NCBI GenBank assembly: GCA_018648825.1
Contig: JABGQL010000100.1
Location: 1-45,086, forward strand
From: Gammaproteobacteria bacterium
GTDB lineage: Bacteria; Pseudomonadota; Gammaproteobacteria; GCF-002020875
DNA: 45,086 bases
Direction of reading: 5' to 3'
A program made the position numbers and the translations under genes. The first letter of the stretch is position 1. Each line of letters starts with the position of its first letter. The notes beneath the pieces are model-generated. The model was not told where the DNA came from. It saw only the letters and a list, made by a program, of their open reading frames with translations, and searched no databases. This document shows positions 31,475 to 44,623 of this stretch, piece after piece.

Positions 31475-33754
31475 TTGAAACAGCGTACAGGCAATAGCAC
31501 ACCACTGTGGGTTAGCATGAGTGCGAGCGTTGTCGTGCCGCTAACGTTTGGAGTGTTGCTTTCAACGTTTTATCCTGAGTGGCGTTGGGCACACTATCCG
31601 GTGCATGCCATGGCAGAGGGGCTGGGTAGCCTTTCTGCATTGGTGATTGCTGCGGTGATGGTGTTGATGATTCATAACCAACGGCTCACTGCGAGATATT
31701 ATTGGGCTGTAACCGCGTTGGTGGGGATGGGTGTGTTTGATGGCCTGCATGCAGTGACCCATGCAGGTAATGCCTTTGTATGGCTTCATAGTATGGCGAC
31801 ATTTGTCGGTGGGGTTCTCTTTTGTGGTGTCTGGTTTTCAGAATCCTGGCCCAACCTGCAAAAGAAATGGGTTTTGTTGGTTGCAGTCTTGTTGCTCTCT
31901 TTCGCGTTAGGTGGATGGTCGATCCTTTTTGAGTCTCAACTGCCTGCGATGATCGTTGAGGGTAAATTTACCTTGTTAGCAAGGGCGCTCAATATTCTGG
32001 GGGGGTTGGCCTTTATTCTGGGCAGCCTGTTCTTTATCCGACAGTATTTGGCGGAGCATAAAGCCGAGGGGCTGGAGAATCAGCACGCCGAGAATATTAT
32101 TTTTGCCAACCACTGTATGTTATTCGGAGTGTCTGGATTGTTGTTCGAGCTCTCCGTGCTATGGGATGCCGGATGGTGGTGGTGGCATCTATTGAGAATG
32201 TGCGCCTACCTGATTGTATTGGTCTACTTCTTTCGTCTGCTCAAAGAGGACTACTCTCTGTTAAAGCGACAGCGTTCAGAAATTCTGGTTGAGAAGGAGC
32301 GCTCAGAGTTAGCCTCTAAGGCCAAGGGTCAGTTTCTGGCCAATATGAGCCATGAGATCCGCACCCCAATGAATGCCATTATCGGTATGTCTCAATTGGC
32401 GCTGCAGACTGACTTAGATGGCAAGCAGCACCATTATGTGGACAAGGTTAATAATGCCGCAAAGAATCTGTTGGCGTTGCTCAATGGTATTCTAGATGTC
32501 TCTAAGATGGATGCCGGTAAGATTGAGTTAGAGCTCCTGCCGTTGCGTATCCGCTATCTGTTTGATGAGCTTCACGCATTGATGGAGTTGGATGCGGTGA
32601 ACCGAGGTATTCGTTTCCGTACTGAAATCAAACCGGGGATGCCCCCGATTTTACTCGGAGACCAGCTGCGCTTGGCTCAAGTGTTGACCAACCTCTGCTC
32701 CAATGCCCTCAAATTTACGGAGCAGGGTGGTGAGGTTATGGTTTATGCAGAGGTACTGGAGCAGTTAGAGGAACGATTCAAAATTTATTTCTCTATAACC
32801 GATAGTGGAATTGGTATGGATGAGGCGCAACAACAGAAGATCTTTGAACTATTCTCACAGGCAGATGCATCCACTACTCGGAAGTATGGTGGTACCGGAT
32901 TGGGGTTGGCCATTACCAAACAGCTGATTGAGCTGATGGGGGGGGTGCTTAAGGTAGAGAGTAAGCCGGGCTGTGGTTCTACCTTTTTCTTTACCCTAGA
33001 GATGGAGAAAACTGCGGAGCATCACACTGGCCAAGAGCGCCGTCGCCTTGATGTAGTGGATGCCAAACGTAAATTACGAGGTGCCAGCATCTTGCTGGTT
33101 GAGGACAATCAGGAAAATCAAGAGATCGCCTATGAGATGCTTACTGGGGCAGATATGCAGGTTGTTGTAGCCAATCATGGGGAGGAGGTGCTTGACCTGT
33201 TAGAGCAGGGGCTGAAGTTTGATGGTGTATTGATGGACTGTATGATGCCTGTAATGGATGGATATCTTGCTACTAAAACCATTCGTCAGCAGCACCGCTG
33301 GGCTGAGCTGCCGATTATTGCGCTTACGGCCCGGGTGACGGAAGAGGATCTTAAGCAGGTGCTGAGTGCCGGTATGAATGATCAGGTACATAAACCGATT
33401 GATACAGCATGGCTGTTTCTTACCATGAGTAAATGGATTACCCCAGCTATCTCTCTGCCAGATGAAGGCGATGAGGTTAAGCCGATGGCTGTATCTCAGC
33501 AGTCGACAGCGATTGATCTTAAATCATTGCTACCATTAATTGATGCACTGCAGAGAGTGATTGCAGAGAAAGATTTTGATGCACTGGAGGTGGTAGAGAA
33601 GATGAATCCATATTTCTATGCAGCAGAAAATGAGTCTGCGGATGCCTTCAGGGCTCTGTATGAATCAGTTAATAACATTGATTTTGATCTGGCTCAGAAG
33701 CAGCTGCCCGATCTGATTGAACTGCTACAGCCAAAGAGTAAAAGGTCTACATAA
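31475..33754 (+). CDS. Hybrid sensor histidine kinase with multi-TM (MASE-like) N-terminal sensor and C-terminal REC
   Basis: About 7 hydrophobic segments; ANMSHEIRTPMNAIIGMSQLALQ, CSNALKFT, DSGIGMD, GGTGLGLAITKQL, ILLVEDNQENQE…GVLMDCMMPVMDG…VHKPI. TTG start at 31475. Confidence 0.9.
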   Translation: MKQRTGNSTPLWVSMSASVVVPLTFGVLLSTFYPEWRWAHYPVHAMAEGLGSLSALVIAAVMVLMIHNQRLTARYYWAVTALVGMGVFDGLHAVTHAGNAFVWLHSMATFVGGVLFCGVWFSESWPNLQKKWVLLVAVLLLSFALGGWSILFESQLPAMIVEGKFTLLARALNILGGLAFILGSLFFIRQYLAEHKAEGLENQHAENIIFANHCMLFGVSGLLFELSVLWDAGWWWWHLLRMCAYLIVLVYFFRLLKEDYSLLKRQRSEILVEKERSELASKAKGQFLANMSHEIRTPMNAIIGMSQLALQTDLDGKQHHYVDKVNNAAKNLLALLNGILDVSKMDAGKIELELLPLRIRYLFDELHALMELDAVNRGIRFRTEIKPGMPPILLGDQLRLAQVLTNLCSNALKFTEQGGEVMVYAEVLEQLEERFKIYFSITDSGIGMDEAQQQKIFELFSQADASTTRKYGGTGLGLAITKQLIELMGGVLKVESKPGCGSTFFFTLEMEKTAEHHTGQERRRLDVVDAKRKLRGASILLVEDNQENQEIAYEMLTGADMQVVVANHGEEVLDLLEQGLKFDGVLMDCMMPVMDGYLATKTIRQQHRWAELPIIALTARVTEEDLKQVLSAGMNDQVHKPIDTAWLFLTMSKWITPAISLPDEGDEVKPMAVSQQSTAIDLKSLLPLIDALQRVIAEKDFDALEVVEKMNPYFYAAENESADAFRALYESVNNIDFDLAQKQLPDLIELLQPKSKRST

Positions 33755-33755
33755 G

Positions 33756-35006
33756 ATGGAAAATCATAAAATGTTGCCGCGTATTCTTGTTGTTGATGAT
33801 CAGCCGAGCAACCTGCAAGTGGTTGGAGAGACACTGAAAAATAGTGGCAAATACAGAGTGAACTTTGCAAAAAGCGGTGAAGATGCATTGAAACAGGTAG
33901 AGAGTTTATCAACGGACCTGATATTGATGGATGTGATGATGCCAGGACTCAATGGCTATGAGGTTTGTCGCAAGCTAAAACAAGACCCTCGTTACCGAGC
34001 GATCCCAGTGATCTTCCTGACTGCGATGCAAGACAGCGATAGCATGGTCGATGGGTTTGAGGCTGGGGGGGTAGACTATGTGACCAAACCTTTCCAACCT
34101 GCTGTGCTTTTGGCACGTGTAGAGGCTCAGCTCAGGCTCTACCTCTATCATCAGCAGGAAGAGAAGATGAGGCGCTATGAACGTGATAGTGCATACCACA
34201 ATGGGTTGGTGGAGATCAGTAGCGAAGTACTGCATAACTTTGGGAACTTACTGGCCTCTATTAAGTATAGAGGGGAGCTGGTTATTGGTCTCAACCGAGA
34301 GATGGCGCAGTTAGAGGAGGTCTTCCAACGAAGTATTGAGTTGCTGAAGCAGGGAGAACAAGGGAAGGTGGTTGAGATTCTTCAAATAAGCAAAACCTTG
34401 ATCAGTGAAGAGTTTTCAGAGCAACGAAGATCCGATGGAGAGCAGCTTCTTGATAGTATAAGGTTGATGGAGTCACTGCTCAGGTCACAGCGCTCTAACC
34501 TTAAGAAGGGGATGAGGTCGAGCCAATTTACGGTTCACTCTTTCCTGGCTGATCTCGAACCTTTGGTTGATAACCTGAGGCCGCTCTGTAGCTTTCATTA
34601 TCACACGGAAGTTGAGGGAGAGTTACCGGAGCTTAACTTTCCGCGTGGGCCACTCTCTTCAGTGATCTTGATGATTCTAAAAAATAGTATTGAGGCGATT
34701 ATGGAGATGCAGAAGAGCACTCCTGAAAAAGTGGGTGATATTATCCTCCGTGTCCTTACAAAAGAGCAGGGCGAAGCATCGCGCTACTGCTTGTTAGAGG
34801 TGGTTGATAACGGGGTCGGAATAGATCCAGAGCAGCTTAATCAGGTGATCCGATCTCAATTCACTACCAAGGTGGAGCACCTTGGAATGGGGTTGCATAA
34901 TGCGGCGAATTTAATCAGTGCGATGCAAGGTACGTTTCAGGTGTTGAGTAGTGGCCAAGGTCAAGGCTGTACGGTTCAGATACTGCTGCCATTAAATATG
35001 GGGTAG
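33756..35006 (+). CDS. Response regulator / histidine-kinase-like protein: REC plus HNxGN-type DHp and HATPase
   Basis: ILVVDDQPSNLQ…LILMDVMMPGLNG…YVTKPF; VLHNFGNLLASI; LKNSIEAI, DNGVGID, HLGMGLHNAANLI. Internal ATG at 33756 (ORF track start 33717 overlaps the upstream gene). Confidence 0.88.
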   Translation: MENHKMLPRILVVDDQPSNLQVVGETLKNSGKYRVNFAKSGEDALKQVESLSTDLILMDVMMPGLNGYEVCRKLKQDPRYRAIPVIFLTAMQDSDSMVDGFEAGGVDYVTKPFQPAVLLARVEAQLRLYLYHQQEEKMRRYERDSAYHNGLVEISSEVLHNFGNLLASIKYRGELVIGLNREMAQLEEVFQRSIELLKQGEQGKVVEILQISKTLISEEFSEQRRSDGEQLLDSIRLMESLLRSQRSNLKKGMRSSQFTVHSFLADLEPLVDNLRPLCSFHYHTEVEGELPELNFPRGPLSSVILMILKNSIEAIMEMQKSTPEKVGDIILRVLTKEQGEASRYCLLEVVDNGVGIDPEQLNQVIRSQFTTKVEHLGMGLHNAANLISAMQGTFQVLSSGQGQGCTVQILLPLNMG

Positions 35007-37562: not shown

Positions 37563-38141
37563 ATGCATGATCAAATTATTCAGTTAGTCGAGCGGATCAT
37601 CGCCTTGGAGCAAGATCTGGAGCGAGAGCTGGAGCAGAAACAGAGTGAGTTCCGCTACCATCTAGAGGAGAAGCGGGCGGTGTTTGAGCAGGAGATGTTG
37701 CTCTCACAGCGTAAGCTAAAATTGGGGTTGTTACAGTTTGTTGGTGGTGCGCGTCTGCGTAACCTGCTCTCTATGCCGGTAATCTACAGCTTGCTGCTAC
37801 CGTTGGTCATGGTTGATCTGGCGGTAATATTTTACCAGTGGTTCTGCTTTTCGTTATGGGGTGTTGCACGGGTCAAACGACGAGACTATTGGGTGATGGA
37901 TCGAGGACAGCTTGCCTACCTGAATGGGATTGAAAAGATCAACTGTGTCTACTGCAGCTATGCCAATGGGCTGGCTAGCTTTATTCGTGAGGTGGCCAGC
38001 CGTACCGAGCAGTACTGGTGTCCGATCAAACATGCGCGACGGATTCATCAGCCACACCCCCGTTACTGGCGCTACAGTGACTTTGGGGATGCGCAAGCCT
38101 ATCGTTCGCGGATGACTCAGTTTAGAGAGGAGCTGAAATAG
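37563..38141 (+). CDS. Conserved hypothetical membrane protein with coiled-coil and C-terminal Cys motif
   Basis: Starts 4 nt after amrS stop; coiled coil then TM (YSLLLPLVMVDLAVIFYQWFCF); NCVYCSYANGLASFIREVASRTEQYWCPIKHARR. Confidence 0.75.
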   Translation: MHDQIIQLVERIIALEQDLERELEQKQSEFRYHLEEKRAVFEQEMLLSQRKLKLGLLQFVGGARLRNLLSMPVIYSLLLPLVMVDLAVIFYQWFCFSLWGVARVKRRDYWVMDRGQLAYLNGIEKINCVYCSYANGLASFIREVASRTEQYWCPIKHARRIHQPHPRYWRYSDFGDAQAYRSRMTQFREELK

Positions 38142-38149
38142 TCTGAGTG

Positions 38150-41100
38150 ATGGAACAGCCTAACCCAACCAAGCAGTGGCGTGTGCTATCGGTAGATGAT
38201 AGTGGTTATGTGCATGACGGCTATGCGGTCATTCTGGGGTGTGATCAGCCTGTTGATACTCAAATAGATGAGATTGCACAGTTGGTTGATCTGCAGCTGG
38301 TAGACCCGAAGCGTGAGTACTGTTTTAGGTTGGATCGAGCGATGGGTGGTGAGGAGGCCTTTGAGATGGTTCAGCGCTCATTGGATAGTGCTGACCCCTA
38401 TGCTGTGGTGTTGATGGATATACGTATGCCCCCTGGATGGGATGGTTTGGAGAGTGCGACAAAAATTCGTGCTATCGACCCTCAGATCCGTATTGTGATG
38501 ACCACGGCGTATATGGATTATGAATTGTATGAGCTGCGTCAGAAGATTGGCCTCGACTTTCAATTTATCAGCAAACCCGCCAATCCAACCGAGTTGCTGC
38601 AGACGGTGCTCTCTCTTGCAAGCAGTTGGGATCAGGCGAGAATAGATGCTGCAGAGGGAGGGAGTGTTACTGCAGGGTTTGATCAACTACAACAACCTAG
38701 TCTGCTCTCCTGCCTAAATGCATTGAATGCGCAGAGCTGGGTCCGTTTGACTGATGCCAGAGATAAAATTATCTATCTGAGTCAGCCACTGTGTGAGGCT
38801 ATGGGGTATCGGCCTGAGACGCTGATTGGGGCGCAGGGGTGCTCTCTGGAGTCTGATCAGAGTGGGGCTGAACAGTATCAACAGATACGCAAGGGCTTGC
38901 AGCGTGGGGAGGTGTGGCAAGGGGAGCTTGAGCTGGTTACAGCAGAGGGGGAAACTCCTATTATGGCGCGGGTGGTTACGATACCGATTATCGGGCTGCA
39001 GGAGGAGGCGGATATGCATCTCTCCTTTATGTATGCGCTGAGTGCCTTGGATCAGGTGGAGCAGGCGCTGCAAATGGTGCAGCAGAGGGTAGATGGTACT
39101 GCTGGAGATAGGGTGTGTGTGTATGCGCTGTTGATCCAGTTGATTGGGAACAGCGCCCTGTTTACGGCTTGTGACCACTTTTCGCAACAGCCCAGCGTTG
39201 TTCGTGCAGTTGAGGCTGTGGTGAACAGGCAGCTTAGATCGCTTCATCAGGTGTTGGATCTTCACCAGCTAAAGTCTGGCCAAGTTCAGGTTGAGAACAG
39301 TCCGTACAGCCTTACGCAGTTACTGGATGAGTTGGAGCAGATCTATCGTCCTCAGGCTCGTGATGCAGGTCTTCAATGGGGGGGGGAGCAGCAGATTCGA
39401 GAGCCATATTTATTGGATGGGGATGGTTACCACTTGGGCAAGATACTGCAACAGTGGATTGAGAATGCCATTCTCTTTTCCGCTCGGGGCCGTGTGATCT
39501 TGAGGGTCTTGCGTGATTCACGCTATCTGCTATTCGAGGTAGAGGATAGTGGTAGAGGAATCTCCGAACAGAGGCTGGAGCAATTGTTTGACCGTTTTGA
39601 GATAGATGGGGAACCCTCCTGTCGTTTCAAGAGCGGTGGCTTGGGGTTGTCTGTTGCGTTAGGTTTGGCTGAGGCACTGGGTGCTATTGTCGAAGTCTCA
39701 AGCAGAGAGGGGGTTGGTACCACCTTCCGGCTCAAGCTCCCCTATCAGCCGAGCGGTATATTGGCTGCACAGGAGCTAGATGCTGTGCATCAGAGGTCGC
39801 TGTTGCAGGAGCAGTTTAGTGGGCGCGTGCTGCTATTGGATGATGGCTTGGTTGCGGCGTTACTACAGCGCCATATGTTGAAACAGATGGGGCTCTCAGT
39901 GACGGCTGTTCAGCAGCATGAGTTGTTAGAGCAGGCGCAGTACTATCCATTCGATCTGATTTTGGTTGATCTGCAGTGTGTGGGTGAAGAACTCATCACG
40001 CTTCCACGGCTGCTGAGGGAGGTGCGGTGTAAGGTGGCAGTGGTTGCACTGTTGCGTTCGCCTCGACAGCGAGTGCCAGAAGAACTTCATAACGAGGGTT
40101 ATGCGGAGGTGCTTACGCAACCGGTTCACCCTCTGGTTCTCAAGCGTGTGCTGAAGCAGTATCTCTTTCCCCAGAGCGTAGGGCTGAGTGATGATCAGCA
40201 GATGGTACGCCTTATTGAAAATACCTCACAGAGTAAGCAGGAGATCCTGACGGCGTTGATGAAAATGGAGTGGGGCCAAGTGCGGGCAGCTGCGCAAGCG
40301 GGGGTTCACTCCGATGCACCCCAGTATATCGAGAATCTGATTACCCGTTTGGAGTTGATCTATAACCGCTATGTTGATGATGGATACAATATTGTGGATG
40401 ATGTCGAGTCCTTGGCGGATGAGATTATTCACAAGCTGAAGCAGGCAGCAGATATGTTTATTGCCATGGTTCACCTGCGGACCCACTTCCATCACTCGAT
40501 TATGCGTACTGTACAGAACACGATATTTTCGATACTTACGGCGCTGCGTCTACAGTGGGGGGAGGAGCGCATTCACTCTTTGGCATGTGCCAGTCTGACT
40601 CAAAACCTCAGTCTCTATCCGCTTCAGGATACGATGATGGGGTTGAGGGGGGGTGAGTTGAGTGAAGCGTATCGGATGCAGATTCGTCTTCATCCAAAGC
40701 GGAGTAGCAAGATGTTGATCTCCATGGGGGTGACCGATCGGGCTTGGATTCATGCCATTGCCTATCATCATGAGCGTATGGATGGGAGTGGGTATCCGCA
40801 TGGCCATACGGCTAAGGATATTCCGCCGGAGGCGCGGCTGATGGCGATTGCCGACCGTTATGGCTCGATGATCTCACCGAGAAATTACCGTGAGGCGGGT
40901 AGTTCAAAAGAGATCATGCGGAAGTTCTTGGTCTCTAAGAGTAAGAACTATGATATGAGTATCAGCAAGGCGTTGATTGCCGAATTGGGAGTCTATCCTC
41001 CAGGAACAACGGTTATGCTGGAGTCTGGAGAGATTGCATTGGTGACGCGGCGTGGAGGTGATCATCTTCACCCTGTGGTGATGGCGATTTGGAGCCCGCA

Positions 41101-41257
41101 GGGGGAGCGCTATAGTCAGCCACTGAAGCGGGACTCTAGGCAGTCACCGCACATAATCATTTCGATGAAAAAGAGTGAAGATGTGAAGTGGCTGAATGTG
41201 GATCGTTTCTGGGGAGGAGAGCGGGCAGAGCAGCAGCCGTTATTTCTCTCCGTTTAG
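38150..41257 (+). CDS. Multidomain signalling protein: REC - PAS - HATPase (no H box) - REC-like - degenerate HD-GYP
   Basis: LSVDDSGYVHDG…VVLMDIRMPPGWDG…ISKPANP; PAS-like WVRLTDARDKIIYLSQPLCEAMGYRPETLIG; ATPase IENAILFS, DSGRGIS, SGGLGLSVA; HHERMDGSGYPHG and ADRYGSMISPRNYR. Confidence 0.85.
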   Translation: MEQPNPTKQWRVLSVDDSGYVHDGYAVILGCDQPVDTQIDEIAQLVDLQLVDPKREYCFRLDRAMGGEEAFEMVQRSLDSADPYAVVLMDIRMPPGWDGLESATKIRAIDPQIRIVMTTAYMDYELYELRQKIGLDFQFISKPANPTELLQTVLSLASSWDQARIDAAEGGSVTAGFDQLQQPSLLSCLNALNAQSWVRLTDARDKIIYLSQPLCEAMGYRPETLIGAQGCSLESDQSGAEQYQQIRKGLQRGEVWQGELELVTAEGETPIMARVVTIPIIGLQEEADMHLSFMYALSALDQVEQALQMVQQRVDGTAGDRVCVYALLIQLIGNSALFTACDHFSQQPSVVRAVEAVVNRQLRSLHQVLDLHQLKSGQVQVENSPYSLTQLLDELEQIYRPQARDAGLQWGGEQQIREPYLLDGDGYHLGKILQQWIENAILFSARGRVILRVLRDSRYLLFEVEDSGRGISEQRLEQLFDRFEIDGEPSCRFKSGGLGLSVALGLAEALGAIVEVSSREGVGTTFRLKLPYQPSGILAAQELDAVHQRSLLQEQFSGRVLLLDDGLVAALLQRHMLKQMGLSVTAVQQHELLEQAQYYPFDLILVDLQCVGEELITLPRLLREVRCKVAVVALLRSPRQRVPEELHNEGYAEVLTQPVHPLVLKRVLKQYLFPQSVGLSDDQQMVRLIENTSQSKQEILTALMKMEWGQVRAAAQAGVHSDAPQYIENLITRLELIYNRYVDDGYNIVDDVESLADEIIHKLKQAADMFIAMVHLRTHFHHSIMRTVQNTIFSILTALRLQWGEERIHSLACASLTQNLSLYPLQDTMMGLRGGELSEAYRMQIRLHPKRSSKMLISMGVTDRAWIHAIAYHHERMDGSGYPHGHTAKDIPPEARLMAIADRYGSMISPRNYREAGSSKEIMRKFLVSKSKNYDMSISKALIAELGVYPPGTTVMLESGEIALVTRRGGDHLHPVVMAIWSPQGERYSQPLKRDSRQSPHIIISMKKSEDVKWLNVDRFWGGERAEQQPLFLSV

Positions 41258-41260
41258 CGT

Positions 41261-41524
41261 TTAGTCTAGTTTTTCGGTGCTCTCATCATGGATATATACG
41301 GGGCTGACTACGGCAACACCATCGATCCCTTCAATCTCTGCAATGGTGTCTGTCATCCCGCCAGAGTTGCGGTTCTCTAGGGTGATAACCAACTTACCGA
41401 TGGGGTCTTCAGCGTGGATCTCCAGCCCCTCAATGGTATGGAGTGCACTCTTCACTGATTCCATTTTCTCAGGTTCCAGTCGTACTGCTACGCCGGAGAT
41501 CTGAATGATTTCTTCATCGCTCAT
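41261..41524 (-). CDS. napD: Periplasmic nitrate reductase maturation chaperone NapD
   Basis: ISGVAVRLEPEKMESVKSALHTIEGLEIHAEDPIGKLVITLE…DTIAEIEGIDGVAVVSPVYIHDE; next to napAB. Confidence 0.9.
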   Translation of the reverse strand: MSDEEIIQISGVAVRLEPEKMESVKSALHTIEGLEIHAEDPIGKLVITLENRNSGGMTDTIAEIEGIDGVAVVSPVYIHDESTEKLD

Positions 41525-41562
41525 GTTCTGTTTTCTCGCTCTATTTCATTGTTTGGTGGTGT

Positions 41563-41598
41563 AAAAAAGCCGCCCGGATTTAGATAAATCCGGGCGGC
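41563..41598 (-). terminator. Strong intrinsic terminator between napB and napD
   Basis: Minus-strand RNA: GCCGCCCGGATTT-ATCT-AAATCCGGGCGGC (13-bp perfect stem, 4-nt loop) followed by TTTTTT. Confidence 0.9.
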
Positions 41599-41613
41599 AG
41601 TTTGGTAGATAGA

Positions 41614-42063
41614 TTATCTACGAGTTGATGTCTTAAACTCGTTGTCTATCAATGGCTCTACTTTGTAGAGTGGGGTGTGACACTGGTTACAGAAGAAGCG
41701 AGCACCTGCGAGCCGGTGGGTCTTGCGGCCATTGTGGTGCAGATAGTGGCTATCACCGACCTTGGTGGCCTCCTCTTCTCTGTAGCTCTCGTCACCGTGG
41801 CACTCCATGCAGCGATTCTCCTTTATGGTGATGGAGTAATCTTTGTGCGGCATCGATGGAGGCTGCTCTTTCCAAGTCCGATAGAAGGGGTCTACATCTT
41901 TGTAGATTCTTCGTTTGGCTGGAATTTGAGCATCACTGGCGATACCCAAGTCACCGCGTAGTGAGGTCACAAAGGGGCCTTCCGCAACGGATACCGAGGT
42001 GCTACCTAACAGTGCTGCAAATACGGCACCCAACAGGAATAGTACGCTTTTACTCTTTTTCAT
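41614..42063 (-). CDS. napB: Periplasmic nitrate reductase di-haem cytochrome subunit NapB
   Basis: Signal peptide MKKSKSVLFLLGAVFAALLGST; haem motifs CMECH and CNQCH; SHYLHHNGRKTHRLAGARFFCNQCHTPLYKVEPLIDNEF. Confidence 0.94.
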   Translation of the reverse strand: MKKSKSVLFLLGAVFAALLGSTSVSVAEGPFVTSLRGDLGIASDAQIPAKRRIYKDVDPFYRTWKEQPPSMPHKDYSITIKENRCMECHGDESYREEEATKVGDSHYLHHNGRKTHRLAGARFFCNQCHTPLYKVEPLIDNEFKTSTRR

Positions 42064-42076
42064 GGTTCTCTCCTCC

Positions 42077-44623
42077 CTATACCTTAGTGATCTTGACAGC
42101 AGTTTTCTTGTAGTCCGTCTCTTTTGAGAGCGGGTCGGTTGCATCCAGAATCAACTTGTTGACTAGGCGGCGGGCATCGAACCAAGGTACAAAGACCAGT
42201 CCTCTAGGTGGCTTGTTACGGCCACGAGTTGCGACACGTCCCTTGATGTTGCCACGGCGTGAGCTGACCTCAGCCACTGCACCATCATAGAGGCCCAGAT
42301 CCTTGGCATCATCAGGATTCATATAGATCATCGCATCCGGTACCGCCTTATACAGTTCTGGAACACGCTGTGTCATTGAGCCAGAGTGCCAGTGCTCTAG
42401 TACGCGGCCGGTACTCATCCAGAGTGGGTAGTCGTTATCTGGAGACTCTGCGGGTGGCTCGTATGGGCAGCAGAAGATATTAGCCTTGCCGTCTGGTTTG
42501 CCGTAGAAGTAAACATCACCATCTTCTACCTCAGGGTTGGAGGCTTTTACGTGTGGATCATACCCTTCACGGTAGCGCCATAAGGTCTCCTTACCATCGA
42601 CTACAGGCCAGCGCATGCCGCGTACCTTGTGGTACTGGCTGTATTCGCCCAGCTCATGCCCCTTCTTTGGTCCTTTCAAACCAAAGATACGGTACTCCTC
42701 GTAGAGCCCCTTCTGTGGGTAGAAGCCAAAGTCGAACGCCTCGTCATTGTCATGTCCTGGCTCTAGGTCACCCATGCCGTACTTGTTGACCTGTCCATTG
42801 GCGAACAGTACATCAAACAGGGTCTTGCCTTTGTGCTCGGGCATCTTCGCCAGCAGCTCATCGGTCCACGCCTCTTCGGTGGTAAAGTGCTTGGAGAACT
42901 CCATCAACTGCCACAGATCAGATTTGGAGCCATCAGGTGCAGGCACCTGTTGACGCCATGCCTGAGAACGACGCTCTGCATTACCGTAGACACCCTCCTT
43001 CTCAATCCACATTGCGGTAGGCAGGATCAGATCCGAGGCCATTGCAGTAACGGTTGGGTAGGGGTCAGAAGTAACGATGAAGTTCTTCGGGTTACGGTAA
43101 CCGGGCAGGGTCTCCTCATTCAGATTGGGAGCCGCCTGTACGTTGTTGTTACACATTACCCAGTAGGCGTTGAGCTTGCCATCTTTTAATTTACGGTTCT
43201 GCAATACAGCGTGATAACCGGGCTTGGCAGGAATGGTTCCCTCAGGAATTTTCCAAGTCTTCTCGGCAAAGTCACGGTGTGGCTTCTTCATTACCACCAA
43301 ATCTGCAGGCAGACGGTGTGCAAAGGTACCAACCTCACGCGCTGTACCACAGGCAGAAGGCTGACCAGTCAGAGAGAATGGGCTGTTGCCTGGCTCAGAA
43401 ATTTTACCAGTCAACAGGTGCAGGTTGTACATTAGGTGGTTCATCCATACACCACGAACGTGCTGGTTGGTACCCATGGTCCAGAGAGACATTACCTTCT
43501 TGTCTGGATCGGCATAAACCTTCGCCAACTTGACTAAGTTCTCTTCTGGTACACCAGACATTCTGGAGACTTTCTCCAAAGTGTAGTCTGCAACAAATGC
43601 TTTATAGGCCTCGAAGGTCATTGGCTTGGAGCCAACCTGTGCCTTACGTGGAGAGCTGTTTTTTGCATTCTTCTCACGAGGGTCTTCAGGGCGTAGACCG
43701 TAACCGATATCGACGTTGGCGAGACGGATGTTGGTGTGCTTCTTCACAAAGTCATGATCGACTGCATCATTCTGGATGATATAGTTGGCGATATAGTTGC
43801 CAATCGCCAGATCGGTCTGTGGCTCGAAGATCATTGTGTTGTCTGCGAGGTCACAGCTACGATGTGTATAAGTAGAGAGCACATGGACCGAAGCGTTAGG
43901 CTTGGTCAGGCGGGTATCCGTGATACGTGACCAGAGAATAGGGTGGTTCTCGGCCATGTTAGAACCCCAAAGCACAAAGTTCTCACCATGTTCGAAGTCA
44001 TCATAACAACCCATGGGCTCATCTGAACCGAAGGTACGCATAAAGGCACCTACTGCAGAGGCCATACAGTGGCGTGCATTGGGGTCGATGTTGTTAGAGC
44101 GGAAACCAGCCTTGTAGAGCTTAGAAGCGGCGTAGCCTTCCAGAACGGTCCACTGACCGGAGCCGAACATGCCCACGGTAGATTTGCCGTCACCACGCTT
44201 CTTGTCGGCGGCCATGGCTGTTTTCCACTTCTCAGCCATGATTTTGAAGGCGTCTTCCCAGCTGACTGGTGCGAACTCACCGTTCTTATCGTATTTGCCA
44301 TTGGTTTGGCGCAGTAGTGGGGTATCGAGACGATCCTTTCCGTACATAATCTTGGAGAGGAAGTAGCCCTTGATGCAGTTCAATCCACGGTTGACCGGTG
44401 CATCTGGATCACCCTGTGTGGCAACCACACGCCCATCACGGGTGCCGACCAGTACACTACAGCCAGTACCGCAGAAGCGGCAGGGGGCCTTGTCCCAGCG
44501 AATACCATCTTTGTCGTAGCCATCTTTGGCTAGGGTCGTGACAGGAATGCCACTGATACCAACGGCTGCGGCGGTTGCAGCGACTGCATTTGACTTAATA
44601 AAGTCCCTTCTAGAGATTCCCAT
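42077..44623 (-). CDS. napA: Periplasmic nitrate reductase catalytic subunit NapA
   Basis: Tat signal [13 protein letters not shown]; 4Fe-4[44 protein letters not shown]; Mo-bisMGD features …[26 protein letters not shown]…. Confidence 0.97.

Follow-up and report, generated by a model that had tools for sequence, protein, structure and literature searches.

What can a protein do that keeps the outline of a hybrid kinase and of an HD-GYP protein but lacks several of their catalytic residues? This question is raised by a gene (38150..41257, + strand) of a gammaproteobacterial genome (2.65 Mb, 168 contigs, 88.5% complete). The window analysed here is the 45,086 nucleotides of contig C37. The reading frame may begin at a GTG (38147) or an ATG (38150) and runs without interruption to a stop codon ending at 41257, with GAGGAG upstream as in-frame ribosome site. 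Counted from the ATG, the product has 1035 amino acids; the original prediction gave 1036, and the motifs that it quoted lie where it placed them. Pfam detects REC, a weak PAS, HATPase_c, a second REC stretch and HD_5. Closer annotation gives the order REC1-PAS-pseudo DHp/CA-pseudo REC2-HPt remnant-xN-GYP, "xN-GYP" being a subfamily name coined in the present analysis. The product is referred to as the fusion protein.

The gene lies 8 nt downstream of a gene for a 192-aa protein without Pfam match (37563..38141, + strand, start set from orthologues), and the two are probably co-transcribed. Genomes G003 and G004 retain the Memo-like, AMMECR1, radical SAM, 192-aa, napD, napB-like and napA genes; the fusion gene is absent between these neighbours, and other genes occupy the gap. 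In the window, napA, napB-like and napD (41261-44623) are convergent with the fusion gene. A gene of 285-287 aa with an RRQFLT start, presumably NapG-like, follows napD in G003 and G004 and has no counterpart there in the window. Further upstream, 33717-35006 encodes a 429-aa REC-HATPase protein without HisKA match, in which a HNFGN stretch may represent a divergent phospho-His site. Signalling genes are abundant in the genome: the fusion protein as query returned more than 150 matches, and 22 GGDEF, 12 EAL and 10 HD_5 matches were counted, four of the last being of xN-GYP type.

REC1 (aa 10-163, 38177..38638, + strand; Pfam Response_reg) is intact. All residues expected of a receiver (DD, D, T, K) are present as D16, D17, phospho-acceptor D90, T119 and K142. 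By these residues REC1 appears to be the clearest phosphorylatable input of the protein, a point that the original prediction overlooked. It is followed by a PAS-like domain (aa 195-285, 38732..39004, + strand), whose PAS_9 match (6.7e-05) is under the curated cut-off.

The kinase block is in a different state. When the pseudo DHp (aa 316-425, 39095..39424, + strand) is aligned with 36 related hybrid kinases, the SHELRTP of the paralogues falls on R321-V-C-V-Y-A-L327, placing V322 (codon 39113-39115) at the phospho-His position and C323 at the Glu position. Replacement of the H-box, as first proposed, is thereby borne out; Pfam finds no HisKA in the fusion protein, so that both marks of a histidine kinase, HisKA and phospho-His, are missing. 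The phospho-His is kept in 36 of 36 kinases, which were retrieved with a query itself devoid of an H-box. Judged from this alignment, its loss is specific to the fusion protein among the related kinases compared. A frameshift as source of the missing H-box was rejected, as neither other forward frame brings an H-box back.

The CA domain (aa 426-535, 39425..39754, + strand; HATPase_c 1.7e-17) is eroded. The ATP motifs were said to remain, and the strings are indeed there, including the G1 Asp (DSGRG) and the GLGL glycines; the N-box (N435Q, K442L) and the lid (G494K, G495S) are altered. These are phosphate-side residues of the ATP site in histidine kinases. Because they are gone, ATP binding by the fusion protein is possible but looks less likely than the original prediction proposed. 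In the pseudo REC2 (aa 557-675, 39818..40174, + strand), D607 is present and the Lys is lost (K657Q), both as predicted, and T635L is a further change. The DHp/CA fold is still recognisable, and the best solved matches to the block include DivL. An AlphaFold model of the block (pLDDT 45, from 3 alignment rows) was left out of interpretation.

What follows REC2 tells where this block came from. In many paralogues an HPt domain stands here (DDELM..F...W..VR..AHTVKGS); at this place the fusion protein has IENTSQSKQEILTALMKMEWGQVRAAAQ, then the GYP module. The front half of an HPt can be traced over aa 689-716 (40214..40297, + strand) with an HMM built from 22 paralogue HPt halves, which scores the remnant at 21.0 bits; among 1000 shuffles the highest score is 8.3. 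Pfam gives no HPt match, and the remnant is visible only with this paralogue-built model. It ends at the phospho-His position, now Q716, and the fusion joint lies just after it. One genus hybrid kinase, L018 (G002:C83), likewise has Gln for the HPt phospho-His (AQTVKG), with its kinase H-box intact. Since the HPt remnant follows REC2, the fusion protein is, on sequence grounds, a REC-PAS-HK-REC-HPt hybrid kinase joined to an xN-GYP gene. The hybrid kinases of the genus (e.g. L017, L019, L121) share the DHp-CA-REC order, many with HPt, and judging from their sequences they are evidently the parent type of the middle block. Unlike the fusion protein, they keep the H-box and the REC2 residues, and none was seen with a GYP module.

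The other parent can be approached through the GYP half, which is 62% and 59% identical to the standalone proteins L009 and L010 of sister species and groups with them in a tree, without strong support. Since L009 and L010 keep an N-terminal domain of their own, the simplest view is that the fusion is derived. No full-length homologue was found in 37 relatives, 369 class genomes, 399 phylum genomes (the latter two samples overlapping in some genomes) or IMG/VR. The combination had been called unusual, and the fusion was indeed absent from all other genomes searched. Taken singly, the kinds of part are known; their combination and its history seem new within the genomes searched.

The xN-GYP module (aa 722-1032, 40313..41245, + strand) consists of a helical GYP domain and a C-terminal beta domain. 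It has the HD-GYP fold by its HD_5 match (4e-22; 79.2 bits, cut-off 27.2). Its AlphaFold model (pLDDT 87) retrieves PmGH, PA4781 and DvhD with Foldseek, the best match being DvhD bound to c-di-GMP (E 3e-8). HHERMDGSGYP is retained at aa 873-883 (40766..40798, + strand), as predicted from the letters, with the GYP motif at G881-Y882-P883. The HD dyad is absent: alignment with canonical HD-GYPs, which fixes the register (e.g. ALTHDLGK in L072), puts Q818-N819 (40601..40606, + strand) at its position. Of the eight metal ligands of PmGH, H848, H873, H874 and D902 are kept and the other four positions differ (H782, R786, Q818, N819), though E185 varies among active proteins too; R911 and Y882 are also retained. 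PmGH loses essentially all activity when H189, H221 or D222 is changed to alanine, and c-di-GMP has been seen bound in a PmGH monomer that had only the G-site iron (PMC4159591). Lost hydrolysis with retained c-di-GMP binding is therefore plausible for the xN-GYP module, by analogy with PmGH. By residue content, then, the fusion protein would lack both autokinase and c-di-GMP phosphodiesterase activity, as the original prediction held.

Is the missing dyad a loss of this protein alone? Every homologue aligned, 9 from the same genus and 29 from other Gammaproteobacteria, has an xN motif, mostly LTxN, in place of the LLHDIGK of active HD-GYPs. The nine genus proteins are standalone (about 330-406 aa) and show LT[QEA]N or LSEN at the HD position; among the 29 class homologues LTxN predominates, the remainder having LSxN, ITxN, FTxN, ISxN or LLxN. 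The Asn that substitutes for the HD Asp (N819 in the fusion protein) is invariant in 39 sequences, as are the equivalents of H250, H276, H277 and Y285, and the D305 equivalent is present in 38 of 39. The H189 equivalent is Arg within the genus (R786) and His in most other homologues. The fusion protein has the features that define xN-GYP: Asn replaces the HD Asp, and H, HH and GYP are all retained. The dyad was thus correctly reported as missing, but to judge by these alignments its absence is an old trait of a widespread subfamily and not the protein's own loss.

Two genomes have a receiver gene of REC1 type immediately downstream of, and co-oriented with, a standalone xN-GYP gene. Such pairs link a receiver input with an xN-GYP output in separate genes; the fusion gene holds both in one chain. 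Standalone xN-GYP and single-domain receiver genes are paired at L025 (5584-7383) and L029 (5887-7701), 18-24 nt apart; the pair is conserved and adjoins a gene for a 637-aa protein without Pfam match. Sensor kinases and periplasmic binding proteins of phosphonate type also adjoin xN-GYP genes (L022 2726-6875, L025 1-7383), and such proteins are found alongside on G000:C31 and G005:C60. At L142 5670-8729 (G077), an xN-GYP gene and one with an EAL-type motif are divergently oriented, and tandem xN-GYP-like genes of 383 and 321 aa occur at L026 927-3046 (G000:C43). A rough motif scan of the neighbours of standalone xN-GYP genes gave no general pattern across the class.

Further, we examined how conservation is distributed along the chain, taking as conserved those columns that are conserved in at least 90% of relatives. 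The fusion protein keeps 20 of 20 such columns in REC1, 8 of 23 in DHp (2 of 11 in its first part, 6 of 12 in its second), 20 of 35 in CA, 17 of 39 in REC2 and 49 of 51 in GYP, fractions that are only roughly comparable since the numbers of relatives are unequal (8 for REC1, 36 for the kinase, 9 for GYP). In a leave-one-out comparison, the 36 paralogues are near-complete at conserved columns throughout. Mainly because of this unequal retention, the two ends of the protein are best taken as constrained and functional and its middle as eroded and non-catalytic, a contrast drawn from one sequence.

Similar designs are known. DvhD of Desulfovibrio vulgaris (9RBZ, 9RC0) is a non-catalytic c-di-GMP receptor (PMC13090378). 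It has the same fold and a non-canonical HD position (SQ), and its binding role is known; the likeness of the fusion protein to this receptor comes from the fold match of a predicted model and may extend to function. DvhD differs in being a membrane dCache-PAS receptor without receiver or kinase block, and it has lost the HH pair that the fusion protein keeps. Non-catalytic GYP regulators further include HnoD, an inhibitor of an EAL phosphodiesterase (reviewed in PMC6335343), NosR (PMC12570481) and PA2572 (PMC3411652), and VC1087 and VCA0895 are inactive GYP proteins (PMC4212101). Like the fusion protein, HnoD, NosR and PA2572 combine a receiver input with an inactive GYP output; as described, they are short REC-GYP proteins with no dead kinase between. 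PA2572 is a YN-GYP protein with the same Asp to Asn change, a likeness seen in the motif, and HnoD is comparable by the description of its domains. NosR of B. pseudomallei has a HG-GTP motif, unlike the fusion protein. NosR (NF053512) is nonetheless its best named NCBIfam match, at 74-86 bits against a cut-off of 400, which leaves it outside that family.

We therefore favour, at somewhat better than even confidence, a fused non-catalytic response regulator with REC1 as input, a dead kinase as spacer and a non-catalytic xN-GYP output. A REC-PAS-DHp-CA-REC-HPt hybrid kinase would have been joined, inside HPt, to an already inactive xN-GYP gene, after which strict constraint would have acted on the two ends only. 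A separate kinase would phosphorylate REC1 at D90, the DHp/CA/REC2 block would serve as a dead dimerising spacer carrying the change onward, and the xN-GYP module would bind c-di-GMP or a partner GGDEF/EAL protein. Its mode of action would be that of HnoD, NosR or PA2572, and like DvhD it might read c-di-GMP. The domains, the lost residues, the HPt remnant, the subfamily-wide HD loss and the unequal erosion are what the sequence itself contributes to this reading. The GGDEF (22) and EAL (12) complement of the genome counts in its favour, and the genus-wide loss of the H189 ligand (R786) counts against it. In keeping with the scaffold or allosteric reader originally suggested, the protein is most plausibly a regulator acting by binding, in line with DvhD as best fold match. 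A more elaborate variant, in which the pseudo-DHp senses whether REC1 in the same protein is phosphorylated and links this to the binding of c-di-GMP by xN-GYP, seems rather unlikely; if true, phosphorelay and second-messenger states would be compared inside one chain.

The dead DHp/CA block might instead act as DivL does: a phosphorylated receiver, either REC1 itself in cis or a different one in trans, would dock on it, and the block would signal this to GYP. DivL is a pseudo-kinase sensor of DivK~P and, like the fusion protein, has a histidine kinase fold without phospho-His (PMC4211667); its place among the best solved matches and the recognisable DHp/CA fold speak for such docking. Yet DivL itself differs mainly at the His and ends in the kinase core, with no second receiver, HPt remnant or GYP module, and in the fusion protein erosion has gone furthest in this block (DHp 8/23), counter to a conserved docking surface. 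We consider this unlikely.

Decay of the whole protein after the fusion broke the phosphorelay, i.e. an incipient pseudogene, would account for the combined loss of kinase, REC2 and HPt functions and for a gene seen in one species only. It is quite unlikely given 1035 open codons, the in-frame ribosome site and almost perfect conservation of the REC1 and GYP ends. Residual catalysis is improbable, whether GYP were to use an altered metal site to hydrolyse c-di-GMP or some other nucleotide, or D607 were still to take phosphate. H848, H873, H874, D902, Y882, R911 and D607 are retained, and VCA0681 is active though one PmGH residue is absent (PMC4212101); but four of eight ligand positions differ, the alanine mutants at H189, H221 and D222 are essentially inactive (PMC4159591), VC1087 and VCA0895, whose HD is not intact, are inactive (PMC4212101), and REC2 is devoid of T and K. 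An assembly chimaera of two genes, conceivable in 168 contigs with the joint seen in a single genome, is very improbable, as a single open frame spans the joint, no near-identical copy of either half occurs elsewhere in the genome (best 50%) and the kinase-half losses are unmatched by any intact kinase gene found there.

Read as a fused regulator, the protein would be a readable case of a catalytic relay turned spacer, with the joint inside HPt, the losses central and the ends intact. Beyond this one protein, a large and little-characterised xN-GYP subfamily comes into view across the Gammaproteobacteria. Its Asn, standing where the catalytic Asp would be, is invariant, the rest of the site is conserved, and short standalone members may give access to the function that the subfamily shares.
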